Assembly: GCF_007556595.1 (NCBI RefSeq)
Contig: NZ_VJNB01000001.1
Span: 1-64,000 of the forward strand
Reading direction: 5' to 3'
Source: Tepidimonas alkaliphilus
Lineage (GTDB): Bacteria; Pseudomonadota; Gammaproteobacteria; Burkholderiales; Burkholderiaceae_C
DNA: 64,000 bases
In this document: positions 7,032 through 53,349 of the stretch, piece by piece
How the letters are laid out: every line of letters begins with the position of its first letter
How positions within the stretch are numbered: position 1 is the stretch's first letter
Notes under the pieces: model-generated
Database searches by the model: none
Seen by the model: the letters and a program-made list of their open reading frames with translations, nothing else
Told to the model about the DNA's origin: nothing
Translations under genes and position numbers: made by a program

Positions 7032-8018
<987 letters not shown>

Positions 8019-8034
8019 TTAAGCTTGTAACCAT

Positions 8035-10473: not shown

Positions 10474-10518
10474 CCGCCCGCGCGGGAACCACCGCAGCCC
10501 AAGCGCACCGAAGCCACC

Positions 10519-35638: not shown

Positions 35639-37384
<1,746 letters not shown>

Positions 37385-37390
37385 CGTGCC

Positions 37391-37735
37391 TCAGCCTCCG
37401 TGTGCGTCGTCGTCCAGCGGCCCGTTGACCAGACCGCGAAAGCCCCAGGCCTGGCGCGTCCCGCCATACGGCACCAGCTCGACGGTGCGCTGCTGGCCCG
37501 GCTCGAAGCGCACCGCGGTGCCGCTGGCGATGTTGAGGCGCATGCCGCGCGCGGCGGCGCGGTCGAAGGCCAGCGCCGCGTTCACCTCCGCGAAGTGGTA
37601 GTGCGAGCCGACCTGGATCGGGCGCTGGCCGGTGTTGCTGACCACCAGCGTGACGGTGGGCCGGCCGGGGTTGAGCTCGAGCTCGCCGTCGGCGGTGAGG
37701 ATTTCGCCGGGGATGACACGTTCGGCGGCGGTCAT
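37391..37735 (-). CDS. ureB: Urease beta subunit UreB
   Basis: 114 residues. Opening [20 protein letters not shown], then [18 protein letters not shown] and the final [15 protein letters not shown]. It is separate from UreA, as in most proteobacteria. It lies 10 bases after the ureJ stop and 6 bases before ureC. Confidence 0.95.
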
Positions 37736-38380: not shown

Positions 38381-38683
<303 letters not shown>

Positions 38684-38694
38684 GTCCGGGATGA

Positions 38695-38711
38695 AGCAAG
38701 CCGTGTGCCAG
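38695..38711 (-). promoter_or_regulatory. Consensus sigma-54 (-24/-12) promoter for ureA
   Basis: On the minus strand the sequence is CTGGCAC-ACGGC-TTGCT, a full match to YTGGCAC-N5-TTGCW with GG and GC exactly 10 bases apart. The GC lies about 13 bases before the ureA ATG. RpoN-dependent transcription fits nitrogen-regulated urease. Confidence 0.8.
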
Positions 38712-38723
38712 CCTGATGCGGCG

Positions 38724-38739
38724 TGGCACGAAAGCTGCA
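38724..38739 (+). promoter_or_regulatory. Second, weaker -24/-12-like element facing the kinase gene
   Basis: TGGCACG-AAAG-CTGCA on the plus strand keeps GG-N10-GC but has C for the first T of TTGC. It forms an inverted repeat (GTGCCA...TGGCAC) with the -24 box of the ureA promoter, so it could be a promoter for the kinase gene or part of an operator. Confidence 0.45.
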
Positions 38740-38751
38740 AGCCAGCCGCGC

Positions 38752-41700
38752 ATGCCACCCGTTTCCAGCAACGTCGAGCCGCGCCCGGCGCCGTCGGCGC
38801 CGATCGCGCCGGTGCGCCGCGCCTACCATCGCTGGGTGGCCAGCGAGACGCTGGAAGACTACGCGCTGCGCTACACGCCGTTGCGCTTTCGCCGCTTCAG
38901 CGCCGCGCGCGTGGCCAACATGGCGTTCGGCGTGGCCTCGTTCCTGGTGCTGGAGGCGGTCGGCGCCACGCTGATGCTGCAGTTCGGCGTCGTCAACGCG
39001 GTGGCGGCGATCCTGGCGGCCGGGGCGGTGATCGCGCTGGTGGGCTGGCCGATCAGCGTGGCCGCGGCGCGCCACGGCGTGGACATGGATCTGCTGACGC
39101 GCGGCGCAGGCTTCGGCTACCTCGGCTCGACGCTGACCTCGCTGATCTACGCCACCTTCACCTTCATCTTCTTCGCGCTGGAGGCGGCGGTGATGGCCTA
39201 CGCGCTGGAGCTGGCGCTGGGCATCCCGCCGTCGTGGGGCTACCTGCTGTGCGCGCTGGTGGTGATCCCGCTGGTGACGCACGGCGTGACGCTGATCGGG
39301 CGCTTTCAGCTTTGGACGCAGCCGTTGTGGCTGGTGCTGATGCTGCTGCCGTGGGCAGCGGTGCTGGTGCAGGATCCGGGCTCGGTGGCGCGCTGGCTGC
39401 ACCGAGATGGTGCGATCGAGGCCGCCGGAGGATTCGACTGGCACCGCTTCGGTGCGGCGCTGACGGTGGCGCTGGCGCTGGTGACGCAGATGGGCGAGCA
39501 GGCCGACTACCTGCGCTTCATGCCGCCGCCGCACCCCGCGCGGCGCTGGCGCTGGTGGGCGGCGGTGGCCGTCGGCGGCCCGGGCTGGGTGGTGCCGGGG
39601 GTGCTGAAGATGCTGGCGGGCGCGTGGCTTGCCCATCTGGCGCTGGAGCGCGGTGTGGACGCGGCGCACGCGGTCGATCCGAACCAGATGTACCGCGTCG
39701 CCTACGAGCACCTGCTGCCGCCTGCCTGGGCGGTGGCGGCCACGGCGCTGTTCGTCGTCGTCTCGCAGCTCAAGATCAACGTCACCAACGCCTACGCCGG
39801 GTCGCTGGCGTGGAGCAACTTCTTCTCGCGCCTGACGCACCACCACCCCGGGCGCGTGGTCTGGATGGCGTTCAACATCGCGCTGGCCTGGCTGCTGATG
39901 GAAATGAACGTCTTTCAGGCGCTCGGGGCGGTGCTGGGGTTGTACGCCCACGTGGCGCTGGCGTGGCTGGTGGCGGTGGTGGCGGACCTGGTGGTGCTCA
40001 AGCCACTGGGCTGGTCGCCGCGCGGCCTCGAATTCCGCCGCGCGCATCTGGTGGACGTCAACCCGGTCGGGGTCGGCGCGATGGTCGGCGCCTCGCTGCT
40101 CGGGGTGGCGGCGCACGTCGGGATGCTCGGCGCGCTGGCGCAGGCGTTTTCGGCGCTGGTGTCGATGGGGGCGGCGTTCGGGCTCGCGGTGCTGCTGGGC
40201 GCCTGGACGCGCGGCCGCCATCACCTGGCGCGCCGGCCCGATCCGGCGGTGGCCGGCGCCCCACCGGGCGCGTCGGGCACGCCGGCGGTGCTGCGCTGCG
40301 TCGTCTGCCAGGGCGACTACGAAGGGCCGGACATGGCGCGCTGCCCGGCCTACGGCGGCTGGATCTGCTCGCTGTGCTGCACGCTGGATGCGCGCTGCGG
40401 CGACGCCTGCAAGCCGCACGCGCGGCTGGGCACGCAGCTGCGCGCGTGGCTGCGGCGCTGGCTGCCGCGGCGCTGGCTGCCGTACCTGGACGCCGGGGTG
40501 GCGCACTACCTCGTGCTGCTGGCGGTCACCGCGCTGGTGCTGGCCGGACTGCTGGCGCTGCTGGCGCAGCAGGATCTGCGCCACGCGCAGGCGCTGGGCG
40601 CGCCGGCGACGCTGATTCACGAGGCTTATCGCAAGGTCTACGTCGTGCTGCTGGCGCTGGCGGCCGTGGTGGTGTGGTGGCTGGTGCTGGCGCAGCGCGC
40701 GCGCCACGTGGCGCAGCGCGAATCGAACCGCTACACCCGGCTGCTGCTGCGCGAGATCGACGCGCACCGCCGCACCGACGCGCAGTTGCAGCGTGCGCGC
40801 GAGCAGGCCGAGGCGGCGCGGCGTGCCGCCGAGCGCGCCAACGAGGCCAAGAGCCGTTACTTGAGCGCCATCAGCCACGAGCTGCGCACACCGCTGGGCG
40901 CCATCATGCTGTACGTGCAGGCGCTGCAGCGCGACGCCGCGCTGGAGGCGCGCCAGGCGCACGCGCTGGCGATGATCCAGCGCGCCGGCGAGCACGTGTT
41001 GTCGCTGATCGAAGGCACGCTGGACCTGGCGCGCATCGAGGCCGGGCGGGTGACGCTGGACCTGCGCCCGACCGACCTGCGCGCGCTGCTGGAGGAGGTG
41101 GCCGCGCTGCTGGCGCCGCAGGCGCGCGCCAAGGGGCTGCGCTTCGCGCTGGAGGGGCCGCCGCGCTGGCCGGCGGCGGTGCGCACGGATGCGGCGCGGC
41201 TGCGCCAGGTGCTGCTCAACCTGCTCGGCAACGCGGTGCGCTACACCGACGCCGGCACCGTGACGCTGCGCGTGGCCTGGGCGCGCGAGCTGGCCACGAT
41301 CGAGGTCGCCGACACCGGCCCGGGCATGAGCGCCTCGGAGCTGCAGCGCGTGTTCGAGCCGTTCGCGCGCGGGGCCGCGGCCAGCCGCGCCGCCGGCGCC
41401 GGGCTGGGGCTGACGATCGCGCGCATGCTCACCGAACTGATGGGCGGCGAGCTGACCGTGCACAGCGCGCTCGGGCAGGGCACGACGTTCCGGCTGCGGT
41501 TGTACCTGCCGGAGGTGGCCGCCCCCGCCGTGGCCGCCGCGACCGCGTCCGGGGCGGCGCCGGCGGCGCTGCCGCCGCCTGCCGCGCTGTCGGCCTGCCC
41601 CGGGCTGCACGCCTGGCCCGCGCCGCTGCGCGCGGCGCTGCTGGAGCGCGTGCGGCTGGGCTGGGCGCGCGGCGTGCTGCGGCTGCTGGATGAGGCGCCG

Positions 41701-41814
41701 CCGCTGCCCGGCCTGGAGGCGGTGCGGCAGGCCGCGCGCGCGCTGGAGTTCGACCTGCTGGAGCGATGGCTGATGGAGGCAAGCGACGATGCGACCGCAC
41801 GTGCTGGAGAGTGA
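38752..41814 (+). CDS. NCS1 transporter-like sensor histidine kinase with Cys-rich module
   Basis: About 1020 residues from ATG 38752; ATG 38716 and a GTG near 38835 are alternatives. Residues up to about 490 resemble a 12-helix nucleobase:cation symporter-1 ([20 protein letters not shown], then many helices). Next comes a Cys-rich module near residues 515-560 with [21 protein letters not shown]. Two more membrane helices and a kinase core follow: H-box [15 protein letters not shown] (His near 708), N-box [14 protein letters not shown]-boxes VADTGPGMS and [11 protein letters not shown]. Probably a receptor that senses a purine, urea-related or other nitrogen compound with its transporter domain. 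Its response regulator gene overlaps the 3' end. Confidence 0.85.
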
Positions 41815-42799
41815 GACCGGCCCGCTGGTGCTGATCGTGGACGACGTGCCCGAGAGCCTGGCGGCGCTGCACGACATGCTGGACGAGACCGGCTACACGG
41901 TGCTGGTGGCCAGCGACGGCCCCACGGCGCTGCTGCGCGCGCGCCAGGCGCGGCCCGACGTGATCCTGCTCGATGCGCTGATGCCGGGCATGGATGGCTT
42001 TGAGGTGGCGCGCCGGCTCAAGGCCGACGAGCGCACCGCCAGCATCCCGATCCTGTTCATGACCGGCCTGACCGAGACCGAGCACCTGATCGAGGGGCTG
42101 GCCGCCGGCGCGGTGGACTACGTGACCAAGCCCGTCAAGCCGCAAGAGGTGATCGCGCGCATCGGCGTGCACCTGCGCACCTCGCGCCAGATCCGCCAGG
42201 GCTCGATGGTGCAGCAGCAGGCGCGCAACGCGCTGGATGCGTTCGGCTTTGCCACCATCACGGTGCGCATGCGCGACGGCCGGCTGCTGTGGCAGACGCC
42301 GCTGGCGCGCGAGCTGCTGTGGCGCTACTGTGGCACCGAGGCGCCGGTGACGCCGGAGCCGGTGCTGCAGTGGCTGCGCCGCCACGGGCCGGACCTGTGC
42401 CGGGGCGACCCGGCGCCGGCGGAGCCGCCGCGCCTGACGCTGACGCAGGGCACGCGGCGGCTGACGCTGCGGCTGTACCGATCGGTGGATGATCCGGCTG
42501 ACACCAGCGCCGACAGCGAGGGCGGCCACTGGCTGATCGTGATGCAGGAGACCTCCGACACCAGCGTGCTGGAGGCGCTGATGAGCACCTTCGGCCTCAC
42601 CGCCCGCGAGGCCGAGGTGCTCTACTGGGTCGTGCAGGGCAAAATCAACCGCGACATCGCCGACATCGTCGGCGCCAGCCCCGCCACCGTCAAGAAGCAC
42701 CTGGAGCGCATCCACGCCAAGCTCGGCGTGGAGACGCGCACCGCCGCGGCGGCGCTGGCGCTGCAGCGCGTGCCGCAGCTGCGCCCGGGCGGGATTTAG
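41789..42799 (+). CDS. Response regulator, REC plus LuxR-type HTH
   Basis: 336 residues. Receiver domain at residues 12-130 with phospho-acceptor Asp in VILLDALMPGMDG and the Lys in YVTKPVKP. A central domain of unknown type follows (about 150-250). The C-terminal LuxR HTH is LTAREAEVLYWVVQGKINRD with ASPATVKKHLERIHAKLGVE. It overlaps the kinase gene by 26 bases and is surely its partner. The urease and urea-transport operons on both sides are the likely targets (inference). Confidence 0.9.
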   Translation: MRPHVLESETGPLVLIVDDVPESLAALHDMLDETGYTVLVASDGPTALLRARQARPDVILLDALMPGMDGFEVARRLKADERTASIPILFMTGLTETEHLIEGLAAGAVDYVTKPVKPQEVIARIGVHLRTSRQIRQGSMVQQQARNALDAFGFATITVRMRDGRLLWQTPLARELLWRYCGTEAPVTPEPVLQWLRRHGPDLCRGDPAPAEPPRLTLTQGTRRLTLRLYRSVDDPADTSADSEGGHWLIVMQETSDTSVLEALMSTFGLTAREAEVLYWVVQGKINRDIADIVGASPATVKKHLERIHAKLGVETRTAAAALALQRVPQLRPGGI

Positions 42800-42818: not shown

Positions 42819-43484
42819 TTATTGACGGCGGAACAGCGCCACCAAGTCGTCGCGCAACGGCACTTCGGCCACCGCCGTCAGCTTGAATTGGTCGCCGTCC
42901 AAGGCCAAGCGGTTCAGCGTCGCTTTCTTGGCATCCAGATTGAGGGTTCCCACCGCCATGCTGCTTTTGCGCAGGTAGTCGGCCACCCGGGGATTGCGCG
43001 CCACGATGTCCTGCGGCTGTTTTTGCGCCCAGGTCGTCACGTGAAAGACCAGCGTACCTTTGTATTGCTGGGCTGCCAGCTCTTCCAACGTTTTTTCCAG
43101 CAGCGCCACATTGTCGTCGCGCTTCCATTCACCCCCAAAGGCCAGATAAACCATGTCGGCGTTGGCCAGGCGCTGAACCGCAGCGGGGATGTCGCTTGCT
43201 TCGCGCACCGACTCCATGGTGAAGGCTCCTTTGGGATGCGTGCGCAGGTAGCCGCTGCCGATGCCGCCGGCCAGCGTGCTGCAAATGGCCGACCGGTTGG
43301 CAATGACGCCCAGCGTCGGCATGGGCATCACCTGGCCCAGGGCTTCGCCAACCGTGCCGCCGGCCATGGCGCGGATGGTTTGCAATTCCCCCATCGTCAG
43401 GGGTTTTTTCTCTTGAGCCCAAGTTGGGCTGGCGGCTGCTGCCAACAGGCTAAGGCCAAAGATCCAAGGGGTGGTGCGTCGCAT
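42819..43484 (-). CDS. Secreted protein of unknown function in ECF operon
   Basis: 221 residues with a signal peptide (cleavage near TWAQEK). The mature part is soluble and mixed alpha/beta, with ANADMVYLAFGGEWKRDDNV and LVFHVTTWAQKQPQDIVARN. A single Cys is present in the mature part (SAICSTLAGG), so no heme or metal-thiolate motif. Not recognised. It is the last gene of the minus-strand ECF operon, 56 bases after the di-heme cytochrome gene, with AAAGGAG before its ATG. Confidence 0.75.
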   Translation of the reverse strand: MRRTTPWIFGLSLLAAAASPTWAQEKKPLTMGELQTIRAMAGGTVGEALGQVMPMPTLGVIANRSAICSTLAGGIGSGYLRTHPKGAFTMESVREASDIPAAVQRLANADMVYLAFGGEWKRDDNVALLEKTLEELAAQQYKGTLVFHVTTWAQKQPQDIVARNPRVADYLRKSSMAVGTLNLDAKKATLNRLALDGDQFKLTAVAEVPLRDDLVALFRRQ

Positions 43485-43540
43485 GATTGGAACTCCTTTC
43501 AGATTGTTGCAGGGTTACTGGGAAAGTAAATCGTCCGAAC

Positions 43541-45238
43541 TCAACGACTCAACAGGTAATGCACGACCGCGTCACGATCGGCGACGTTGCCGACATAGAA
43601 CGGGTGCGGCGCTTGCCCCCCGCGCTGAGGATCGAGCAGCCAGCGCAGCGCCTCCAGCGTGTCGCGACCCTCCACGCTGCCGTCGTGCAAAAAGTCTTTG
43701 CGGCCATCCAAGCCCAGCAGCAAGGGTTGCGCGTAGCCGACTCGCTCGCCGCGCAGCGAGGCGTTGATCACCACCACCTCGTTGTCGTAGCTTGGGCGCG
43801 GCCCTTGATCGAAGCTTTTCTGCACCGGCGACAGCGGCGCGGGACGGCTGAGCAGCACTTGAGGCCGATAAGCCGGGTAGAGGGTGCTGAGCGGCTGCAC
43901 CGCCGTTTGCACCGGGCGATTGGGGTCGGCGGTGTGGCAGCTGGCGCATTGCTGCGCAAACACTTGTTGGCCGCGCTGCACCAAGGCCGGATCGAGCTGG
44001 CGCTGGGTGCGCGGCGCGGCCAGCTGGTCGGTGTAGGCGCGCAGCGCCGCCAGCTTGGCGGCATCGACGCGCACGCCCACCACGCCCGCCGGATCGCCGA
44101 TGGGGCGACCCGTCGGTTGCGCGCGCACAAAAGGATAGCGGCCAGCCAGCCCGCTGCGTTCCAGCACGGCACGGTAGCGTTGGTGGATTTCCTGACCCAC
44201 CGGCCCCGCCAGCGTGGTCAGCAGTTGCGCACCGCGCTCGGTGGCCAGCACGGTCGGATCCAGCGCGACCGTGTAAACGTAGTTGTTGAAATCGTCCAGG
44301 TTGGCGAACGTGCCGGCATGCCCCCACGGCGCGGCCAAGTCGGTGCGGAAAAACGCCTGCGTGTAAGCGGTGTTGTTGATGCCGTCGGGCAGGGCATCGA
44401 ACGTGCCGGGGCCGTAGTGCCGCTGTCCCTGCCGGTCGGCGCCGGCCAGGTAAGCGCGCGCCTCCTCATTGGTGTCGTTTTGAATGCCGGCAAAATCGGT
44501 CTTGCCGATGCTGGCGCCGTTGAGGGATTGGAAAGCCAGTTGCAGCAATGGCAAATAAGCCACTGGGTTGTCGGCTGCCGCCAGAATCTTGCCGACGTCA
44601 AGATCGATCGCGTTAGGGCCATCGATACGGCGACCAACCGAACCGGCCAATCCCGCGAATCCAGCCGGCACCACCGAGTTGTCGGTGCGGCTGTGGCACA
44701 GCGCGCAGCTGATGCCAATCTTGTCCCCGCGCGCGAGGTCAAGCCGGTCGTTCGGGTTGTATTGCGGCGAGCTGCCCAGCGGTTTGCGCCGTCCTTGCGC
44801 ATCCACCGGCACGACGCCGATCACCGCCCCTTCATTGATCAGCGTCAGCGTCACGGCTGGATCGGCCAACACGGTTTGTTGCGGATCTTTGCCGTTGCGA
44901 ATTTCAGCCAGCGCCTTGGTCAAGGCTTGGGCGGTGGCAGGACTGAGCGCTTCGACGTCCACGTTCAGACCCAACCCGAGGGCTTGCAGCGGGGTGAGGC
45001 CGGCTTTGACCAGCCCCTGGGGCAAGCGCATCGCATCGGTCCAAAAGCCTTCGTTGCCAAAGGTTTCGTAGCGGAACACCTCGCGTCCGAGGGCCACCGC
45101 CGCGCGGTCGGGCCCGGCCTCGGCGCTGCTGGGGCCGTCGCCGCCGCCAAGGCAGCCCAGCAGCGCTAAAGCAGCGCCAGCGCTCGCCGCCAGCGCCAGC
45201 GGCCGGCGCAGCCGCACCAAGTGGAGTTTGAGCGTCAT
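43541..45238 (-). CDS. Di-heme c-type cytochrome lipoprotein (peroxidase/MauG-like superfamily)
   Basis: 565 residues. The N-terminus has a lipobox (AALALLGC), so the protein is probably lipid-anchored facing the periplasm. Two heme c motifs are present: CALCH near residue 177 and CASCH near residue 430. The length and the late segment LPDGINNTAYTQAFFRTDLA resemble large di-heme cytochromes related to cytochrome c peroxidase, MauG or RoxA; the substrate is unknown. It follows the anti-sigma gene by 87 bases, in which an 8-base hairpin lies, and is probably controlled by the sigma factor. Confidence 0.8.
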   Translation of the reverse strand: MTLKLHLVRLRRPLALAASAGAALALLGCLGGGDGPSSAEAGPDRAAVALGREVFRYETFGNEGFWTDAMRLPQGLVKAGLTPLQALGLGLNVDVEALSPATAQALTKALAEIRNGKDPQQTVLADPAVTLTLINEGAVIGVVPVDAQGRRKPLGSSPQYNPNDRLDLARGDKIGISCALCHSRTDNSVVPAGFAGLAGSVGRRIDGPNAIDLDVGKILAAADNPVAYLPLLQLAFQSLNGASIGKTDFAGIQNDTNEEARAYLAGADRQGQRHYGPGTFDALPDGINNTAYTQAFFRTDLAAPWGHAGTFANLDDFNNYVYTVALDPTVLATERGAQLLTTLAGPVGQEIHQRYRAVLERSGLAGRYPFVRAQPTGRPIGDPAGVVGVRVDAAKLAALRAYTDQLAAPRTQRQLDPALVQRGQQVFAQQCASCHTADPNRPVQTAVQPLSTLYPAYRPQVLLSRPAPLSPVQKSFDQGPRPSYDNEVVVINASLRGERVGYAQPLLLGLDGRKDFLHDGSVEGRDTLEALRWLLDPQRGGQAPHPFYVGNVADRDAVVHYLLSR

Positions 45239-45258
45239 CGGGGTCTCCTTGTCAAAGC

Positions 45259-45278
45259 AGGGCGGAGCATTCCGCCCT
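45259..45278. other. Hairpin in the leader of the di-heme cytochrome gene
   Basis: AGGGCGGA and TCCGCCCT pair over 8 bases around a GCAT loop, ending about 20 bases before the cytochrome start codon at 45238. No T run on the minus strand follows it. It may stabilise the mRNA or affect translation. Confidence 0.5.
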
Positions 45279-45325
45279 CAACCCCTAAAACGGCGCTCAG
45301 CCCCGTTTGGATGCAAAACCTTTCA

Positions 45326-46048
45326 TTAAGTAGGGTTTTGGCTTGCCGCCGGCGCCGATGGCCACGGCGCCAGGTAGCGGACGGGCCCGGTGGGCGTGCC
45401 GGTGGGCGATCCCCCCGCCGGCTCAAGGCTGACAGCCAAGGCTTTGAACGCCACCTCGCCCGGGGGCGTGCGCACGGGGGTTGCGTGGCCTGGCGGGGCA
45501 AGCCCCAGCGAGATCGGCTGTCCCTCCACCGGCACGGCCCACAGCTCCCAACTGCGCTGCGGACCCGGGTCGGCCTGACGCGGCACGATCACCTGCCAGA
45601 CTTGCGCAGAGGGCTGCGTGACGACGATGACGCCAGCGGCGGGGTCAGGCTCGGCGGGTTGCAGGATGGCTACGGTGGCCCCCAAAGGATCCTGCGGTCG
45701 CAAGGGCCAGGCGACCACAGCCAGACTGATGGCCGCCGCGGTGGCGACGGCAGCCCAAGCAGGCCACAACCATGCTCGCAGCCGTCTTGACGGACGAGCC
45801 ACAGCAGGCGGTGGGGCCGCAAGACCAGCTAACCGAGCGGCGATCCGATCCCAAACCGCCGCCGGCGGCGCCTCTCGCGGCGCCGGCGCCAGTTCGCTGA
45901 AGCGCTGTTGCCAGCGTAACACATGCGCTTGCAACAGCGGATGGGCGACCATCAGGCGCTCGAAACGGCGTCGCGCGCCTCCCCTTAAGGTGCCGATGAC
46001 GTAAGCGCCGGCCAATTGCTCGGCCAACGGTTCGCGCAGGATGTTCAT
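45326..46048 (-). CDS. Anti-sigma factor, RskA family
   Basis: 240 residues from ATG 46048. The N-terminal anti-sigma part has LAEQLAGAYVIGTLRGGARR with RFERLMVAHPLLQAHVLRW. One membrane helix (AWAAVATAAAISLAVVAWPL) is near the middle, and the outer C-terminal part has the RskA signature region with SWELWAVPVEGQPISLGLAP. It would hold the sigma factor at the membrane. It overlaps the sigma gene by 4 bases. Confidence 0.88.
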   Translation of the reverse strand: MNILREPLAEQLAGAYVIGTLRGGARRRFERLMVAHPLLQAHVLRWQQRFSELAPAPREAPPAAVWDRIAARLAGLAAPPPAVARPSRRLRAWLWPAWAAVATAAAISLAVVAWPLRPQDPLGATVAILQPAEPDPAAGVIVVTQPSAQVWQVIVPRQADPGPQRSWELWAVPVEGQPISLGLAPPGHATPVRTPPGEVAFKALAVSLEPAGGSPTGTPTGPVRYLAPWPSAPAASQNPT

Positions 46049-46680
46049 ACGGTGGGATGTCCGACTTGCTGCAGGCAGTCGCGCAAACCCAACAGGGCGC
46101 GTCGCACCCAGCTTTTGACGCTGCCCAGCGGCGCGCGCAAGTGTTGCGCGAGCTCCAGGTGGCTCAGGCCATGCATGTAGGCCAAGATGACGCTTTGGCG
46201 CTGCACCGGCGGCAGTTGTTGCAAGCAGTCGTGCAGATGCCGTTGCGTGCGTCGTTGGTGCCAGACCTCTTCGCCGCCGTCGTGTTGCGCCCAAGCGACT
46301 GCTGGATCGCTTGGCTCGTCGTCGCTGAGCGTCTCGCCGGCGGCAGTGGCCGCAGCCGCTGCCGGTGTGTTCTCGAGGGACACGACGGGACGCGCGCCGC
46401 GCAAGCTGTCGATGGCTTTGTTGCGGGCAAGGGTCAGCAGCCAAGCCCAGGGATGCCCCAAGCTGGCTCGATAGAGCTGCGCCTGCTGCCAGACAGCCAG
46501 ATACGTTTCTTGCAGGGCGTCTTCGGCGGCGGCACGATCAGGCTGGATGCGCAGGATGACGCCGAACAGCCGGGCTGCGGTGCCGTCGTAAAGCCGCCGC
46601 AGCGCGCCGGCGTCATGCAGGGCCACGCGTGCCAACAGGTCAGCCAGCTCGTCAGGTGAGAAAGAGTAAGCCCGCGTCAT
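46045..46680 (-). CDS. ECF sigma factor (SigK-like group)
   Basis: 211 residues from ATG 46680. Region 2 has AEDALQETYLAVWQQAQLYR and AWLLTLARNKAIDSLRGARP; region 4 has LQQLPPVQRQSVILAYMHGL with LAQHLRAPLGSVKSWVRRAL. It pairs with the RskA-type anti-sigma factor encoded next. The predicted regulon includes this operon. The inducing signal is unknown. Confidence 0.9.
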   Translation of the reverse strand: MTRAYSFSPDELADLLARVALHDAGALRRLYDGTAARLFGVILRIQPDRAAAEDALQETYLAVWQQAQLYRASLGHPWAWLLTLARNKAIDSLRGARPVVSLENTPAAAAATAAGETLSDDEPSDPAVAWAQHDGGEEVWHQRRTQRHLHDCLQQLPPVQRQSVILAYMHGLSHLELAQHLRAPLGSVKSWVRRALLGLRDCLQQVGHPTV

Positions 46681-46790: not shown

Positions 46791-46806
46791 TACGCCATCT
46801 GGCGTA
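46791..46806. promoter_or_regulatory. Palindromic activator site candidate before urtA
   Basis: TACGCCATCTGGCGTA is a perfect 7+2+7 inverted repeat. A plausible -10 TAGCAT at 46830-46835 would put its centre near -43, abutting the -35 region, which is the usual place for a LuxR-type activator site. The LuxR-type response regulator encoded about 4 kb upstream is a candidate binder. Confidence 0.55.
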
Positions 46807-46884: not shown

Positions 46885-48159
46885 ATGATGCAACGTCGCT
46901 CCACGCTCAAGGCCCTGTCCGCCGCCGCCGCGATGGCCGCTTTCGGCCCCTGGGTGGCGCGGGCGCAAGGCAACGCGCCGATCAAGGTCGGCATCCTGCA
47001 CTCGCTGTCGGGCACGATGGCGATCTCCGAGACGGTGCTCAAGGACATCGCGCTGATGACCATCGACGAGATCAACGCCGCCGGCGGGGTGCTGGGGCGC
47101 AAGATCGAGCCGGTGGTGGTCGATCCGGCCTCCAACTGGCCTCTGTTTGCCGAGAAGGCGCGCCAGCTGCTGACGCAGGACAAGGTGGCCGCGGTGTTCG
47201 GCTGCTGGACCTCGGTCAGCCGCAAGTCGGTGCTGCCGGTGTTCGAGGAGCTGAACGGCCTGCTGTTCTACCCCGTGCAGTACGAGGGCGAGGAGCTCAG
47301 CAAGAACGTCTTCTACACCGGCGCGGCGCCGAACCAGCAGGCGATTCCCGCCGTGGAATACCTGATGAGCAAGGACGGCGGCAGCGCCAAGCGCTTCGTG
47401 CTGCTCGGCACCGACTACGTGTATCCGCGCACCACCAACAAGATCCTGCGCGCGTTCCTCAAGTCCAAAGGCATCCCCGAGTCGGACATCATGGAGGAGT
47501 ACACGCCGTTCGGCCACAGCGACTACCAGACCATCATCGCCAAGATCAAGCAGTTCGCCGCCGCGGGCAAGAAGACCTGCGTGATCTCCACCATCAACGG
47601 CGACTCCAACGTGCCGTTCTACAAGGAGCTGGGCAACCAGGGCCTCAAGGCCACCGACGTGCCGGTGGTGGCCTTCAGCGTCGGCGAGGAAGAGCTGCGC
47701 GGCGTCGACACCAAGCCGCTGGTCGGGCACCTGGCGGCGTGGAACTACTTCATGTCGATCAAGAACCCGACCAACGACGCCTTCATCAAGAAGTGGGCCG
47801 CCTACGCCAAGGCCAAGAACATCCCGGGCCACAAGGACAAGCCGCTGACCAACGACCCGATGGAGGCCACCTACATCGGCATCCACATGTGGAAGCAGGC
47901 GGTGGAGAAGGCCAAGAGCACCGAGACCGACAAGGTCATCGAGGCCATGGCCGGGCAGACCTTCGACGCCCCGAGCGGCTTCAAGGTCAAGATGGACGAG
48001 CGCAACCACCACCTGCACAAGCCGGTGTTCATCGGCGAGGTGCGCGCCGACGGTCAGTTCAACGTCGTCTGGAAGACCAAGGGGCCGATCCGCGCCCAGC
48101 CGTGGAGCCCGTTCATCCCCGGCAACGAGAAGAAGAAGGACGTGCCGGAGAAGGCCTGA
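46885..48159 (+). CDS. urtA: Urea ABC transporter substrate-binding protein UrtA
   Basis: 424 residues with a twin-arginine-like/Sec signal (RRSTLKALSAAAAMAAFGPW, cleavage near ARAQG). The mature protein matches UrtA: IKVGILHSLSGTMAISETVL, FGCWTSVSRKSVLPVFEELN, and the C-terminal HNHxL-like region NHHLHKPVFIGEV. It binds urea in the periplasm. It is the first gene of urtABCDE. Confidence 0.95.
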   Translation: MMQRRSTLKALSAAAAMAAFGPWVARAQGNAPIKVGILHSLSGTMAISETVLKDIALMTIDEINAAGGVLGRKIEPVVVDPASNWPLFAEKARQLLTQDKVAAVFGCWTSVSRKSVLPVFEELNGLLFYPVQYEGEELSKNVFYTGAAPNQQAIPAVEYLMSKDGGSAKRFVLLGTDYVYPRTTNKILRAFLKSKGIPESDIMEEYTPFGHSDYQTIIAKIKQFAAAGKKTCVISTINGDSNVPFYKELGNQGLKATDVPVVAFSVGEEELRGVDTKPLVGHLAAWNYFMSIKNPTNDAFIKKWAAYAKAKNIPGHKDKPLTNDPMEATYIGIHMWKQAVEKAKSTETDKVIEAMAGQTFDAPSGFKVKMDERNHHLHKPVFIGEVRADGQFNVVWKTKGPIRAQPWSPFIPGNEKKKDVPEKA

Positions 48160-48179
48160 CGCCGGCGGGAGGGCAGGGG

Positions 48180-49796
48180 ATGACGATGCGCGCATGGCGG
48201 CATGGGGCGGCGACGCTGCTGGCCGTGCTGGGCCTGCTGCTGCCGCGGCTGGCCCCGGCGCTGACGCCGGAGCAGGCGCTGGCGGTGGCCGAGGGGACGG
48301 TGGCCGAGCGCGTGCAGGCCATCACGCAGCTGGCCGCCGCGCCGGATCCGGCGGCAGCGGCGCTGCTGCGTGCGCTGCAGGACGAGCGCGTGCGCGTGCT
48401 CGAGGGGCAGGTCTGGATCGAGCAGCCGGACGGCAGCGCGGTGCGCGCCGACAGCGGTGCGCCCGAGCCGCTGCCGCCCGCGGCCGAGGCGCCGCTGCTG
48501 AACAACCGGCTGCGCGCGGCGCTGGCGCTGGCGCTGGCGGCGCTGGATTTGCAGGAAGCCGACCCGCAGCGCCAGCGCGCCGCCGCCGCGACGCTGCGCC
48601 GCGCCCTGCTGGAGGAGCCGGACGAAGCGTTCGCGCCGCTGCTGCGCGCGGCGCTCGACCCGCAGCGCCAGCCGCCGCTGGACGGACGCGCCGCGGCGCT
48701 GCTGGCGCAGGCCCTGGCGGCGGTGGAGCTGGCCGATGCCGATCCGGCGCGCCGGCGCGTCGCCGCCGGGGTGCTGGGCGGCAGCGGCGAGCGGCAGGCG
48801 CTGCCGTTGCTGCAGCAGCAGCGCGCGCAAGAAACCGACCCCGCGGTGGCGCAGGCGCTGCGCCAGGCGCAGCAGGCGCTGGAGCGCACGCTGGCGCTGG
48901 CCGAAATCGGCGGCACGGTGTTCACGGGGCTCAGCCTCGGCTCCATCCTGCTGCTGGCGGCGCTGGGGCTGGCGATCACCTATGGCCTGATGGGCGTCAT
49001 CAACATGGCGCACGGCGAGCTGATCATGGTCGGCGCCTACGCCACCTACGTCGTGCAGCAGCTGTTTGCGCGCCTGTGGCCGCAGTGGTTCGACTGGTAC
49101 GTGCTGGCGGCGCTGCCGGTGGCGTTCCTGACCGCGGCGCTGGTCGGGGCGGCGATCGAGCGCGGCGTCATCCGGCACCTCTACGGCCGGCCGCTGGAGA
49201 CGTTGCTGGCCACCTGGGGCCTGAGCCTGATCCTGATGCAGGCGGTGCGCAGCCTGTTCGGCGCGCAGAACGTCACGGTGGAAAACCCCGCGTGGCTCAG
49301 CGGGGCGCTGACCCTGCCCGGGGGGCTCGTCCTGCCGTGGAACCGGGTGGCGATCCTGGTGTTCGCGGCGCTGGTGCTGGCGGCGGTGGCGTGGGTGCTG
49401 GCGCGCACGCGGCTTGGGCTGTTCGTGCGCGGCGTGACGCAGAACCGCCCGATGGCGGCCTGCATGGGCGTGCCGACCGGCCGCGTCGATGCGCTGGCGT
49501 TTGCCTTCGGCTCCGGCGTGGCGGGGCTGGCCGGGGTGGCGCTGAGCCAGATCGGCAACGTCGGGCCGGACCTGGGGCAGGCCTACATCATCGACTCCTT
49601 CATGGTCGTGGTGGTCGGCGGCGTCGGCCAGCTGGCCGGCACGGTGCTGGCGGCGCTGGGGCTGGGGCTGCTGAACAAGCTGCTGGAGGGCTGGGCCGGC
49701 GCGGTGCTGGCCAAGATCGCCGTGCTGGTGCTGATCGTGATCTTCATCCAGAAGCGGCCGCAGGGGCTGTTCGCGCTGAAAGGAAGGCAGGCATGA
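48180..49796 (+). CDS. urtB: Urea ABC transporter permease UrtB
   Basis: 538 residues from ATG 48180. A signal-like N-terminus and a helical periplasmic domain of about 230 residues precede a LivH-type membrane domain: LGLAITYGLMGVINMAHGEL and MVGAYATYVVQQLF. The large N-terminal domain is characteristic of UrtB. It overlaps urtC by 4 bases. Confidence 0.94.
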   Translation: MTMRAWRHGAATLLAVLGLLLPRLAPALTPEQALAVAEGTVAERVQAITQLAAAPDPAAAALLRALQDERVRVLEGQVWIEQPDGSAVRADSGAPEPLPPAAEAPLLNNRLRAALALALAALDLQEADPQRQRAAAATLRRALLEEPDEAFAPLLRAALDPQRQPPLDGRAAALLAQALAAVELADADPARRRVAAGVLGGSGERQALPLLQQQRAQETDPAVAQALRQAQQALERTLALAEIGGTVFTGLSLGSILLLAALGLAITYGLMGVINMAHGELIMVGAYATYVVQQLFARLWPQWFDWYVLAALPVAFLTAALVGAAIERGVIRHLYGRPLETLLATWGLSLILMQAVRSLFGAQNVTVENPAWLSGALTLPGGLVLPWNRVAILVFAALVLAAVAWVLARTRLGLFVRGVTQNRPMAACMGVPTGRVDALAFAFGSGVAGLAGVALSQIGNVGPDLGQAYIIDSFMVVVVGGVGQLAGTVLAALGLGLLNKLLEGWAGAVLAKIAVLVLIVIFIQKRPQGLFALKGRQA

Positions 49797-50935
49797 ACAC
49801 CGCCGCATCGACCGCAGGGCCGCAGCCGGCCAGCGCGCACGGGCCGCGGCTGCTGGCGCCGCAGGCGCGCGCGCTGTGGCTGGCCGTCGCGCTGGTGGCC
49901 GGGGTGGCGCCGCTGCTCAACCTCGCGGTGCCGCCCGACAGCGTCTGGCACCTGAGCGACCACTGGATCACGCTGCTCGGCAAGATCATGTGCTACGCCA
50001 TCTGCGCGCTGGCGCTGGACCTGATCTGGGGCTACACCGGCATCCTCAGCCTCGGGCACGGGCTGTTCTTCGCGCTGGGCGGCTACGTGATGGGCATGTA
50101 CCTGATGCGCCAGATCGGCACCGACGGCCACTACGGCAGCGAGCTGCCGGACTTCATGGTCTTCCTCGACTGGAAGGAGCTGCCGTGGCACTGGGCGCTG
50201 TCGCACAGCTTTGCGGCCACGCTCGTGCTGATCGTGCTGGTGCCGGGGCTGCTGGCGTGGGTGTTCGGCTACTTCGCGTTCCGCTCGCGCATCCAGGGGG
50301 TGTATTTCTCGATCATCACGCAGGCGCTGACGCTGGCGGCGATGCTGCTGTTCTACCGCAATGAGACGGGCTTCGGCGGCAACAACGGCTTCACGGACTT
50401 CAAGCGCATCCTGGGCTTTCCGATCACGACCTCGGAGACGCGCGTGGCGCTGTTCGTCGTCACGGGGCTGACGCTGATCGGCTGCTACCTGCTGGCGCGC
50501 TGGCTGGTGGCCAGCAAGTTCGGCCGCGTGCTGCAGGCGATCCGCGACGCCGAGGGGCGCGTGATGTTCTGCGGCTACGACCCGCTGCCCTACAAACTCA
50601 CGATCTGGACGCTGTCGGCGGTGATGTGCGCGCTGGCCGGGGCGCTGTATGTGCCGCAGGTCGGCATCATCAACCCGCGCGAGATGAGTCCGGCGGCCAG
50701 CATCGAGATCGCGGTGTGGACGGCGGTCGGCGGGCGCGGCACCCTCATCGGCCCGATCGTCGGGGCGTTCGCGGTCAACGGCGCCAAGAGCTGGCTGACG
50801 GTGGTGGCGCCGGAGGTCTGGCTGTACGCGCTGGGCGCGCTGTTCGTGGCGGTGACGCTGTGGATGCCGCAGGGGCTGGTCGGCCTGTGGCGGCGCTGGG
50901 TGCGCCGCGCGCCGCGCGGGGAGGGGGGCGCATGA
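49793..50935 (+). CDS. urtC: Urea ABC transporter permease UrtC
   Basis: 380 residues from ATG 49793. LivM-type membrane protein: ALDLIWGYTGILSLGHGLFF, FGGNNGFTDFKRILGF (UrtC signature region), and the coupling loop SKFGRVLQAIRDAEGRVMF. Overlaps of 4 bases with both neighbours show a tightly coupled operon. Confidence 0.94.
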   Translation: MNTAASTAGPQPASAHGPRLLAPQARALWLAVALVAGVAPLLNLAVPPDSVWHLSDHWITLLGKIMCYAICALALDLIWGYTGILSLGHGLFFALGGYVMGMYLMRQIGTDGHYGSELPDFMVFLDWKELPWHWALSHSFAATLVLIVLVPGLLAWVFGYFAFRSRIQGVYFSIITQALTLAAMLLFYRNETGFGGNNGFTDFKRILGFPITTSETRVALFVVTGLTLIGCYLLARWLVASKFGRVLQAIRDAEGRVMFCGYDPLPYKLTIWTLSAVMCALAGALYVPQVGIINPREMSPAASIEIAVWTAVGGRGTLIGPIVGAFAVNGAKSWLTVVAPEVWLYALGALFVAVTLWMPQGLVGLWRRWVRRAPRGEGGA

Positions 50936-51804
50936 CCCCGGATCTGCTGCAAAGCGGCGCCGAGCGCTGGCAGCGTGCGCAGCGCCGCGCCGAGTCCGAA
51001 GGCGCCAGCGGCGGGCGTGCCGCGGCCTTCGCCCACCCGGTCGCGCCCGGCGCCATCGACACCAGCCACGGCCGCATCCTCTACCTGGACGACGTGCAGG
51101 TCAGCTTCGACGGCTACAAGGCGCTCAAGGGCCTCAGCCTCGACATCGCGCCCGGCGAGCTGCGCGCCATCATCGGCCCCAACGGCGCCGGCAAGACGAC
51201 GATGCTGGACGTCATCACCGGCCGCACGCGCCCGGACCGCGGCAGCGTCTTCCTCGGCAGCACGATCGACCTGCTGCGCTACCGCGAGCCGCAGATCGCC
51301 GCGCTGGGCGTGGGGCGCAAGTTTCAGAAGCCCACGGTGTTCGAGCCGCTGACGGTGTGGGAAAACCTGGAACTGGCGCTGGCGGGCGACAAGCGCGTGC
51401 GCGCCAGCCTCACCTTCCGCCTCGGCGCCGCGCAGCGCCAGCGCCTGCAGGAGCTGCTGGCGCTGATCCACCTGGAGGACGCCGCCGGACGAGCCGCCGG
51501 CACGCTCAGCCACGGGCAGAAGCAGTGGCTGGAGATCGGCATGCTGCTGGCGCAGGAGCCCAAGGTGCTGCTGCTGGACGAGCCGGTGGCCGGCATGACC
51601 GACGACGAGACCGAGCGCACCGCGCAGCTCCTCCTCAAGCTCAAGGGGCGCCACACGCTGGTGGTGGTGGAGCACGACATGGGCTTCGTGCGCGCGATCG
51701 CCGACAAGGTCACCGTGCTGTGCGACGGCGCGGTGCTCACCGAAGGTTCGTTCGAGCAGGTGGCGCGCGACGAGCGCGTCATCGAGGTCTATCTGGGGCG
51801 TTGA
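50932..51804 (+). CDS. urtD: Urea ABC transporter ATPase UrtD
   Basis: 290 residues from ATG 50932. An N-terminal extension of about 50 residues, then Walker A GPNGAGKTTMLDVITG, GRKFQKPTVFEPLTVWENLE, the LSHGQKQWLEIGMLL signature (LSHGQ, as usual in UrtD) and LLLDEPVAGMTDDETERTA. It drives urea import with UrtE. Confidence 0.95.
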   Translation: MTPDLLQSGAERWQRAQRRAESEGASGGRAAAFAHPVAPGAIDTSHGRILYLDDVQVSFDGYKALKGLSLDIAPGELRAIIGPNGAGKTTMLDVITGRTRPDRGSVFLGSTIDLLRYREPQIAALGVGRKFQKPTVFEPLTVWENLELALAGDKRVRASLTFRLGAAQRQRLQELLALIHLEDAAGRAAGTLSHGQKQWLEIGMLLAQEPKVLLLDEPVAGMTDDETERTAQLLLKLKGRHTLVVVEHDMGFVRAIADKVTVLCDGAVLTEGSFEQVARDERVIEVYLGR

Positions 51805-51809
51805 CGGTC

Positions 51810-52514
51810 ATGCTGGTGATCGAGGACGTGCATCAGTACTACGGCGGCTCGCACACGCTGCGCGGCGTCAGCCTGCAGGCGCGCGCGGGCGAAATCACCG
51901 TGGTGCTGGGCCGCAACGGCGTGGGCAAGACCACGCTGCTGAAGAGCCTGATGGGCCTGGTGCCGATCCGCCAGGGCCGCATCGCCTTCGACGGCGCGGA
52001 GCTGGCGGGCCAACCGGTGCACGAGCGCGCGCGCCGCGGCATCGGCTACGTGCCGCAGGGGCGCGAGATCTTCCCGCGCCTGACGGTGCGCGAAAACCTG
52101 CTGATGGGGCTGGCCAGCCGCCCCGCCGGCACCGCGCTGCCGGCGCAGCTGTTCGAGCTGTTTCCGGTGCTGGCCGAGATGCAGGGCCGCCGCGGCGGGG
52201 ACCTTTCCGGCGGGCAGCAGCAGCAGCTGGCGATCGCGCGGGCGCTGGCGGCGCGCCCGCGCCTGCTGGTGCTGGACGAGCCGACCGAAGGCATCCAGCC
52301 CAACATCATCCAGGCCATCGGCCGCGTGCTGCGCCAGCTGGCGCGCCAGGGGCTGGACGGCGAGCCGATGGCGATCCTGCTGGTCGAGCAGTACTACGAC
52401 TTCGCACGCGAGCTGGCCGACCGCTACGTGGTGCTGGAGCGCGGCGCGGTGGTGGCCAGCGGCAGCGGCGACGAGATGGACGCCCACGGCGTGCGTGCGA
52501 TGGTGGCGCTGTAG
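51810..52514 (+). CDS. urtE: Urea ABC transporter ATPase UrtE
   Basis: 234 residues. Walker A GRNGVGKTTLLKSLMG, IGYVPQGREIFPRLTVRENL, signature LSGGQQQQLAIARALA, Walker B LLVLDEPTEGIQPNIIQAIG, H-loop region LLVEQYYDFARELAD. It is the last gene of urtABCDE and converges with ureD, the stops being 4 bases apart, without room for a terminator. Confidence 0.95.
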   Translation: MLVIEDVHQYYGGSHTLRGVSLQARAGEITVVLGRNGVGKTTLLKSLMGLVPIRQGRIAFDGAELAGQPVHERARRGIGYVPQGREIFPRLTVRENLLMGLASRPAGTALPAQLFELFPVLAEMQGRRGGDLSGGQQQQLAIARALAARPRLLVLDEPTEGIQPNIIQAIGRVLRQLARQGLDGEPMAILLVEQYYDFARELADRYVVLERGAVVASGSGDEMDAHGVRAMVAL

Positions 52515-52518
52515 CGGA

Positions 52519-53349
52519 TCAAACCCGCCACAGCCGCAGCGGCGGGGCCTCCAGGCCCCACGCCTGCCGGCGCAGCACGGCGCGCAGGCGTTGCCACAGC
52601 GCCATCAGCGGCTCCACCACCTCCGCCAGCCCGCGCACCACCAGCACCCGTTCGTGCGGGCAGGTGGCGCCGGCGGCCACCGGCTCGAGGCTTGCGGGCA
52701 GCTGCGCGCGCACGGCCTGTAGCAGCCGCTCGCGCTCGGCCTCGGTCCACGGCGTGCCGCGGGCCAGCACCAGCGTGCCCAGGGCGCGCCGCCCCGCCAG
52801 GCCGGGGCCGCCGTCCAGCAGCCAGCGATCGGCGGCCTCCAGCCGCCCTTCGTCGAGCCAGACGTCGTCCACCGCCATGCGCTGGTGCAGCACGCCGGCG
52901 GCGAACGGCGCGCCGGCCTGCGGCAGGCCGAGCGCGCACACCTCCCACGCCAGCAGCTGCGCGCCCGGGGCGAGCTCGGCGTCGAAGGCGTTGCGCGCCA
53001 GGCAGCCGGGGTAGGCGATCGTCTCCGCCGGCAGCCACTCCAGCCGCGCGCCGTCGGACAGCCGCGCGCGCACCTTCTGCGCCGCCGGCGCGCCGTCGCT
53101 GCGGTAGAAGCGCGTCGCCCCGGGCGTGGTCACCAGCACGTGCGCGCCGGGGCCGACCTGCACGTCGATGGCCAGCTCGTCGCCGCCGACGAGGCCGCCC
53201 GGTGGGTGCACCAGCACCGCGTGCACCACCGCCGGGCCTTCCGGGTGCAGCGTCTGCAGCACGCGCAGCGGCCCCTCGTGCGCGAACGCCAGCCGGCTGC
53301 GCCCGCTGACGGCGCTGCCGTGCAGCTTCAGCCGTGCCTGCCAGCCCAT
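52519..53349 (-). CDS. ureD: Urease accessory protein UreD (UreH)
   Basis: 276 residues. GPLRVLQTLHPEGPAVVHAV and LVHPPGGLVGGDELAIDVQV are the UreD core; VTTPGATRFYRSDG and EWLPAETIAYPGCLARN follow. It is essential in the UreDFG activation complex. It is detached from ureAJBCEFG by about 14 kb and lies 19 bases after the malic enzyme gene on the same strand, so it probably depends on maeB transcription. Confidence 0.94.
   Translation of the reverse strand: MGWQARLKLHGSAVSGRSRLAFAHEGPLRVLQTLHPEGPAVVHAVLVHPPGGLVGGDELAIDVQVGPGAHVLVTTPGATRFYRSDGAPAAQKVRARLSDGARLEWLPAETIAYPGCLARNAFDAELAPGAQLLAWEVCALGLPQAGAPFAAGVLHQRMAVDDVWLDEGRLEAADRWLLDGGPGLAGRRALGTLVLARGTPWTEAERERLLQAVRAQLPASLEPVAAGATCPHERVLVVRGLAEVVEPLMALWQRLRAVLRRQAWGLEAPPLRLWRV

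Follow-up and report, generated by a model that had tools for sequence, protein, structure and literature searches.

A predicted urea-responsive two-component system with an NCS1-like transporter domain in its sensor kinase, encoded between urease and urea-uptake genes of Tepidimonas alkaliphilus

Introduction

CbrA, CrbS, and RpuS are sensor histidine kinases in which a secondary-transporter-like domain is fused to the kinase, and their partner regulators act on nutrient uptake or use, as described in the accessible parts of PMC7096432, PMC9100948, and PMC5715377. These SLC5/STAC sensor kinases are the nearest described class to the protein analyzed here, a transporter-like sensor histidine kinase encoded together with a LuxR-type response regulator in a 64,000-nucleotide (nt) stretch of Tepidimonas alkaliphilus DNA (contig NZ_VJNB01000001.1, positions 1 to 64,000; hereafter, the window). 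The likeness extends to the regulator of the CrbS system, CrbR, which is given in the excerpted text of PMC5715377 as LuxR-type and as requiring an inverted repeat. In contrast to the SLC5/STAC kinases, which these sources portray as an SLC5 domain plus STAC, the system described here has an NCS1-like domain, an eight-cysteine (Cys) module, and two further helices, and it is accompanied by urea or amide genes. For CbrA, the same portion of PMC7096432 reports that histidine is transported and that the SLC5 domain seems to influence autokinase activity.

Two other systems share single features with this locus. EupR of Chromohalobacter is a NarL/FixJ-type regulator in solute uptake with a predicted SSF-type kinase bearing a 12-helix symporter-like domain, but that system is of the sodium/solute symporter type with PAS and serves ectoine uptake (PMC2964678, as far as its accessible text goes). 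Similarly, the Methylophilus fmdCABDEF genes combine a formamidase with urea/short-amide ABC uptake, there induced by formamide and urea, whereas the available part of PMC10781810 names a putative positive regulator and not a transporter-like kinase. Papers on known relatives also include PMC5936718 and PMC8399564; in the accessible part of the latter, NCS1 occurs in a reference title only. Among the matches listed from the open-access literature, judged by title and the start of the abstract, we found no NCS1-type sensor kinase and no urea-sensing two-component system of this type.

Here, we present evidence that the kinase, with its transporter-like receptor part, and its regulator are likely to form a two-component system that responds to urea under two-layer control, in which the regulator would activate the urea transporter genes (urt).

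Results and Discussion

Architecture of the sensor kinase and its regulator

The features on which the argument rests are given below with their coordinates in the window. Residue numbers of the kinase are counted from 38716.

38752..41814, + strand: transporter-like sensor histidine kinase, 1020 amino acids (aa) from the ATG at 38752; frame open from 38716
38806..40230, + strand: NCS1-like (LeuT-fold) sensor domain of 12 helices, residues ~31-505 (AlphaFold model, Foldseek matches to Mhp1/CodB, bridge sequence L176)
40297..40413, + strand: eight-cysteine module, residues 528-566 (invariance in the kinases, profile search)
40498..40698, + strand: two further predicted membrane helices, 595-627 and 631-661, linking module to kinase (model secondary structure, conserved WWxVL motif)
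40846..41508, + strand: HisKA (711-777) and HATPase_c (825-931) by Pfam; C-terminal receiver absent here
41789..42799, + strand: response regulator with receiver (14-125), middle region, and LuxR/GerE DNA-binding domain (270-324)
46791..46806, no strand assigned: palindrome TACGCCATCTGGCGTA, predicted operator of the LuxR-type regulator, 79-94 nt upstream of urtA
38724..38739, + strand: sigma-54-like -24/-12 element TGGCACGAAAGCTGCA, towards the kinase
38695..38710, - strand: sigma-54-like -24/-12 element TGGCACACGGCTTGCT, towards ureA

A previous interpretation made from the DNA letters alone (the sequence-only reading) had described a symporter domain fused through a Cys module and two helices to a histidine kinase, with an overlapping LuxR-type gene. 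Pfam searches, the structural model, the conservation of the module, and the 26-nt overlap of the two genes all confirmed this description.

The N-terminal half was not recognized as NCS1 by Pfam (including PF02133) or NCBIfam, with no PF02133 match for the kinase domain, and Pfam gave no SSF (SLC5) match in the kinase. PDB sequence searches of this half, with the single sequence and with a profile, gave nothing useful. The fold was recognized from an AlphaFold model built from a 39-sequence alignment (mean predicted local distance difference test score (pLDDT) 82.6, predicted TM-score 0.85). The five best Foldseek matches in the PDB were Mhp1/CodB structures (E 1.9e-8 to 2.2e-7, TM-score to target 0.67-0.77), with Mhp1 at 1.9e-8 and 0.72 and CodB at 5.8e-8 and 0.77, and proteins of the LeuT fold outside NCS1, SLC5 included, ranked lower. 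Furthermore, a stand-alone 497-residue relative (L176:9949-11442) matched PF02133 with 36.4 bits (cut-off 23.5) and aligned with the kinase family over 444 columns at 30% identity (hhalign probability 99.9%). On the model, its Foldseek matches, and this bridging sequence, the N-terminal half is assigned as a divergent NCS1-like transporter domain with a 12-helix LeuT fold. Mhp1 and CodB share this fold, at 15-16% identity, but are stand-alone carriers of hydantoins and cytosine and belong to a family whose PF02133 model does not recognize the kinase domain. The L176 protein itself is a candidate amide carrier of the NCS1 type; its gene neighbors include a nitrilase-like open reading frame and a UrtA/AmiC-like one, as read from the translations, the latter also by a 26% tblastn match.

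The invariant residue K353 falls in the helix-8 stretch where NCS1 carriers bind sodium, and the alignments to Mhp1-like sequences around it differ by up to three positions. Loss of the sodium site through K353 was considered and is not claimed, because the alignments disagree there. The residue thus weighs only weakly against an alternative in which the receptor senses transport flux, or works as a urea/amide symporter in its own right (as a transceptor, like CbrA), with signaling as a by-product of turnover. The complete 12-helix NCS1-like domain, as modeled, is consistent with such turnover, and CbrA offers a precedent, as it transports L-histidine according to the accessible text of PMC7096432. 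On the other side, each of the 40 kinase-bearing genomes tested encodes UrtA, a component of a dedicated pump, and the sensor therefore need not take up the substrate itself. We consider the transceptor rather unlikely and retain the reading of the protein as a urea receptor.

Regarding the start codon, the congeners L131 and L132 have an ATG at the point matching 38752 and none at that of 38716 (L132 has an additional ATG 6 nt from the latter), so 38752 is the better supported start.

The eight-cysteine module

The module follows the pattern C-x2-C-x11-C-x7-C-x2-CC-x5-C-x3-CK. It was ungapped and invariant in 33/33 aligned sequences, and each of the eight Cys residues was invariant in 75/75 dereplicated kinases, including the window's. 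A profile of the module gave 13 matches in 12 of 120 genomes of the phylum; 12 of these were frames of 894-1216 aa in which the membrane domain was also found, and the remaining one was a 19-position match. Therefore, within this 120-genome sample, the module seems private to this receptor. Pfam gave no match between the membrane domain and the kinase; whether a STAC model was among those searched was not verified.

An AlphaFold model of the module alone (pLDDT 73) resembled RING/U-box, PHD, and FYVE zinc folds, with RING/U-box and PHD at the top of the list and a best E of just 0.11. A structural zinc knot is our guess at its most likely form. The equal invariance of the module beside formamidase genes argues against a urease-specific nickel role. 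In other NCS1 proteins, the region after the 12-helix domain lies on the cytoplasmic side; if the kinase is oriented likewise, the module would be cytoplasmic.

Gene neighborhoods of the kinase in relatives

The N-terminal 574 residues of the kinase were matched in 114/200 genomes of the same family (four weak ones among these, in G029, G065, G176, and G188, are not counted as this kinase), and the membrane-domain profile was matched in 54/398 genomes of the phylum, a few via fragments or stand-alone proteins only. Neighbor labels were taken from searches with the window's proteins and with amide-cluster proteins, and each locus was labeled by its nearest gene. Labels for 147 kinase loci comprised 94 urea, 46 amide, and 7 neither, in a set where L031-L110 are the best 80 of at least 579 confirmed relatives, which over-represents the urea branch, and where loci gathered in different searches may in some cases be from the same genome. 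The urea-type kinase is carried, for example, by Hydrogenophaga pseudoflava (L053) and Variovorax paradoxus (L108). Five of the seven loci with neither label had little sequence on one or both sides. With enough flank (no less than 5 kb to one side of the membrane-domain match and 7 kb to the other), 68 urea, 44 amide, and 2 unlinked loci (L046 and L138) remained, so that 112/114 were linked to urease/urea-transporter or formamidase/amide-transporter genes. The divergent ureA lay at most 2.5 kb from the kinase in 82 of the 94 urea-labeled loci. Because the kinase-urea gene arrangement is repeated in tens of loci, it is more than chance.

The sequence-only reading had held that linkage to unrelated pathways in relatives would speak against control of urea use. 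This is not what was found: formamidase and the urea/amide-type ABC transporter handle near-relatives of urea, and therefore the amide loci do not represent such a linkage. Purines, hydantoins, and allantoin had also been listed there as compounds to test, and no observation here points to them.

The amide label is backed by the FmdA formamidase of L118, which scored 769 bits against the NCBIfam equivalog NF045496 (cut-off 500); the binding protein of the amide-cluster transporter also passes the UrtA model. At E < 1e-100, urtA was found in 40/40 kinase-bearing genomes versus 40/80 kinase-less ones. Many genomes have two kinase copies, and G122 has one by each cluster type (L136 and L118). L060 and L088 hold urea-branch kinases, 65-66% identical to the window's, that were mislabeled amide, as a second, amide-type cluster lies within their flank. 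A third group (L125-L130) combines the same receptor and Cys module with a different kinase half (5/6 aligned), a receiver-EAL protein, a LuxR-type protein, and formamidase, which suggests a route from amide to cyclic-di-GMP.

On a quick tree of 75 kinases with an outgroup, in which the outgroup branch and several rows are long, the urea/amide label required six changes, or five without L060, which was dropped as a urea-branch kinase beside an amide copy. Forcing the 33 urea-linked kinases into one clade was rejected (log-likelihood 226 lower, approximately unbiased test p 4e-6). Since the urea-linked kinases are not one clade, one receptor type appears to have been paired repeatedly with urea or short-amide genes. 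Several changes are indicated, and their direction is not claimed, given the great length of the outgroup branch.

The palindrome upstream of urtA

Newly described here, in front of urtA, is a palindrome. It has the form TACGCC-N4-GGCGTA with a core of TACG-N8-CGTA, and its exact form occurs once in the 2.46-Mb genome; with one mismatch allowed, the genome holds 3 matches versus 23 for a reversed control pattern. The core was present upstream of urtA in 35/38 loci, and the corresponding count for amide-type urtA or fmdA was 27/40, as against 35/2940 random 400-nt windows of the same loci with true sites left in. Four further amide regions carry TGCGTCAAATGACGTA, with one core mismatch. Two palindromes 22 nt apart were observed upstream of amide-type urtA in L179, L180, and L210.

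Within one family, the core preceded urtA in 29/30 genomes with the kinase versus 6/30 without it (Fisher p 7e-10, kinship ignored). The former are the best-scoring urtA loci of 40 genomes picked from 110, and the single miss has 41 nt upstream; the latter are the best-scoring of 40 urtA-positive genomes among 80 searched of 90 kinase-less ones, and their negatives include L276 (no start found) and L266 (138 nt upstream). Among the kinase-less genomes, a regulator relative (E < 1e-50) was found in 4/6 with the palindrome (G062, G174, G179, and G112) versus 1/24 without it (G084), indicating that the palindrome tracks the regulator better than urtA, with exceptions. Two genomes without the palindrome, G021 and G118, gave a receiver-only regulator match at ~1e-31. 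In G040 and G112, the kinase may be missing from the assembly, as these are 74% and 76% complete. We predict that the palindrome is the operator of the LuxR-type regulator.

In G179 (L289 4424-5515), the kinase was not found, the regulator relative adjoins urtA, and the palindrome is kept; read from the sequence, this relative has an apparently degenerate receiver, in which the usual phospho-acceptor region seems to be lost.

The palindrome could instead belong to another regulator that co-occurs with the kinase, with the LuxR partner acting on ureA or elsewhere. In 13/76 relatives, the ureA-kinase gap holds a sequence that differs from the palindrome by no more than one core mismatch, and in two kinase-less genomes the palindrome stands without any regulator relative, both of which would fit this explanation. 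Conversely, a regulator relative is present in four of the six kinase-less genomes keeping the palindrome, and amide genes beside a related regulator are likewise preceded by this core. We judge a second regulator to be quite improbable, and the LuxR-type regulator remains the predicted partner of the palindrome.

Sigma-54-like promoters between ureA and the kinase

The first 200 nt from ureA of 76 ureA-kinase gaps, including the window's, were scored for -24/-12-like elements, which had to contain GG and GC and to match the consensus at no fewer than 9 of 11 positions. Elements towards ureA were present in 60/76 gaps and towards the kinase in 49/76, versus 0.9% per strand in a mononucleotide-shuffled control. 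An independent count of spaced word pairs, with the kinase coding sequence excluded, found the same repeats in 45/56 dereplicated gaps versus ~1 in shuffles. The window's gap holds two back-to-back elements, both matching 10 of 11 positions and the sole ones that good in 64 kb, where 17 sites score 9; rpoN is present in the genome. No element reading towards urtA, amide-type urtA, or fmdA was found in 78 upstream regions, and 12/40 amide-type regions carried one on the opposite strand, mostly reading towards the kinase.

The paired TGGCA...TGCA repeats of this gap were once considered as regulator sites. Sigma-54 promoters follow the GG-N10-GC spacing rule and consensus, which these repeats fit, and the regulator-site assignment was dropped. 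The distance from the end of each predicted element to the start codon is 12 nt for ureA and 13 nt for the kinase (38684-38751). Leaderless transcripts, hinted at by such near start points, are not claimed, since relatives vary widely, above all towards ureA.

Transcription with sigma-54 depends on an AAA+ activator, for example NtrC, and a LuxR-type regulator alone should not open sigma-54 promoters. Therefore, control of urea use, as the sequence-only reading had put it, needs a second, nitrogen-status input. What holds of that proposal is a transporter-like receptor tied to urea by the neighborhoods and by the palindrome before urtA; it is refined in that the predicted direct target is the urt uptake operon.

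These promoters also suggest nitrogen control and so bear on a further alternative, namely that the receptor reads general nitrogen status (ammonium, urease flux) or, through the Cys module, some signal in the cytoplasm, and that the urea/amide linkage reflects co-regulation, not ligand recognition. The strict conservation of the module, while no ligand-specific residue is visible, points the same way. The linkage of 112/114 loci to urea and short-amide genes argues against it, and because a genome, such as G122, can hold a copy by each cluster, two ligands fit better than one general signal. We regard a general nitrogen signal as unlikely and keep urea as the proposed ligand of the window's receptor.

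The kinase half and loss of the receiver

HisKA and HATPase_c were strong Pfam matches, besides weaker overlapping ATPase models. H721, N835, N839, D866, G894, G896, and G898 were invariant in 22/22 rows of the kinase alignment. By its domains and its conserved His and ATP-binding motifs, the protein is assigned as a two-component sensor histidine kinase, which would pass phosphate to the regulator, a protein with the REC and GerE (Pfam) architecture of NarL/FixJ (LuxR-type) regulators.

A C-terminal receiver was detected in 135/147 kinases. The 12 without it are those of the window, L131, and L132; L125-L130, L193, and L194, the last two being tree sisters of the third group; and the broken L144. 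Judged from the sequences, the window's genus can dispense with the hybrid receiver, which is absent from the window's kinase and from both congeners. In L144 (G049, 7367-10503), the kinase is interrupted, with the membrane domain split by ~1.5 kb and a formamidase gene adjoining.

Other genes of the locus

To the left of the kinase, on the divergent - strand, lie ureA, ureJ/hupE, ureB, ureC, ureE, ureF, and ureG. To the right, urtABCDE on the + strand all pass NCBIfam model cut-offs, and ureD lies farther out.

38381..38683, - strand: ureA (urease gamma)
37391..37735, - strand: ureB (urease beta)
35639..37384, - strand: ureC (urease alpha)
46885..48159, + strand: urtA, urea ABC transporter binding protein (TIGR03407 above cut-off)
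48160..49796, + strand: urtB (TIGR03409 above cut-off; exact start not fixed, matched part from ~48915)
49946..50935, + strand: urtC (TIGR03408 above cut-off; exact start not fixed)
51076..51804, + strand: urtD (TIGR03411 above cut-off; exact start not fixed)
51813..52514, + strand: urtE (TIGR03410 above cut-off; exact start not fixed)
52519..53349, - strand: ureD, urease accessory gene

Between the regulator and urtA (42819-46660), the window contains ~4 kb of - strand genes, encoding a 221-aa protein without a Pfam match, a cytochrome c protein, an anti-sigma RskA-like protein, and a sigma-70-like protein. In several relatives, urtA directly follows the regulator without intervening genes.

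Evidence weighing against a urea receptor acting on urt

Several observations count against the proposal. Four urea-branch kinases lack urease in the available flank, with L046 and L138 unlinked and L060 and L088 standing by an amide copy. The core is absent from 13/40 amide-type regions, several of them gammaproteobacterial, and from 3/38 urtA regions. The palindrome occurs without a regulator relative in the kinase-less genomes G040 (74% complete) and G027, and G084 (86% complete) has a regulator relative without the palindrome. The alignment columns that passed the filter list leanings only, and none cleanly separates urea-linked from amide-linked receptors; thus, the identity of the ligand is not visible in the sequence. 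Finally, the accessible part of PMC7096432 states that no kinase activity of CbrA was significantly affected by histidine, and a transporter-like kinase therefore need not respond directly to its substrate.

Conclusions

From the computed domain architecture, the gene linkage, the co-distribution of the palindrome with the kinase or regulator, and the sigma-54-like elements, we infer a mechanism that extends to ligand, phosphotransfer, DNA binding, and metal. Under nitrogen shortage, sigma-54 promoters, probably driven by NtrC, would transcribe the urease genes and the divergent kinase-regulator pair. The NCS1-like domain would read urea by binding it, perhaps with slow transport, and the signal would reach the kinase by way of the presumably cytoplasmic eight-Cys module and the two additional helices. 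Phosphorylated by the kinase, the LuxR-type regulator would then bind TACGCC-N4-GGCGTA upstream of urtA and turn on the urea pump of high affinity. The same receptor, a related regulator, and the operator core would serve formamide/short-amide genes in relatives.

A wider idea, which we advance only tentatively, is that of a small-amide receptor class, in which an NCS1-type domain without net transport and with a private two-metal eight-Cys clasp would read urea or formamide directly in the membrane, with several re-targetings and two kinase-and-output types (LuxR, and receiver-EAL plus LuxR).

In soils, waters, and engineered systems, much depends on urea and small amides as sources of nitrogen. 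If the proposal is true, the locus would represent a type of small-nitrogen-compound sensor about which little is known, with the receptor, regulator, operator sequence, and target operon in one package across Pseudomonadota, which could be used in building urea or formamide biosensors. It would also offer a natural series of receptors with a changed nutrient, from which it may be learned how a transporter fold becomes a sensor.

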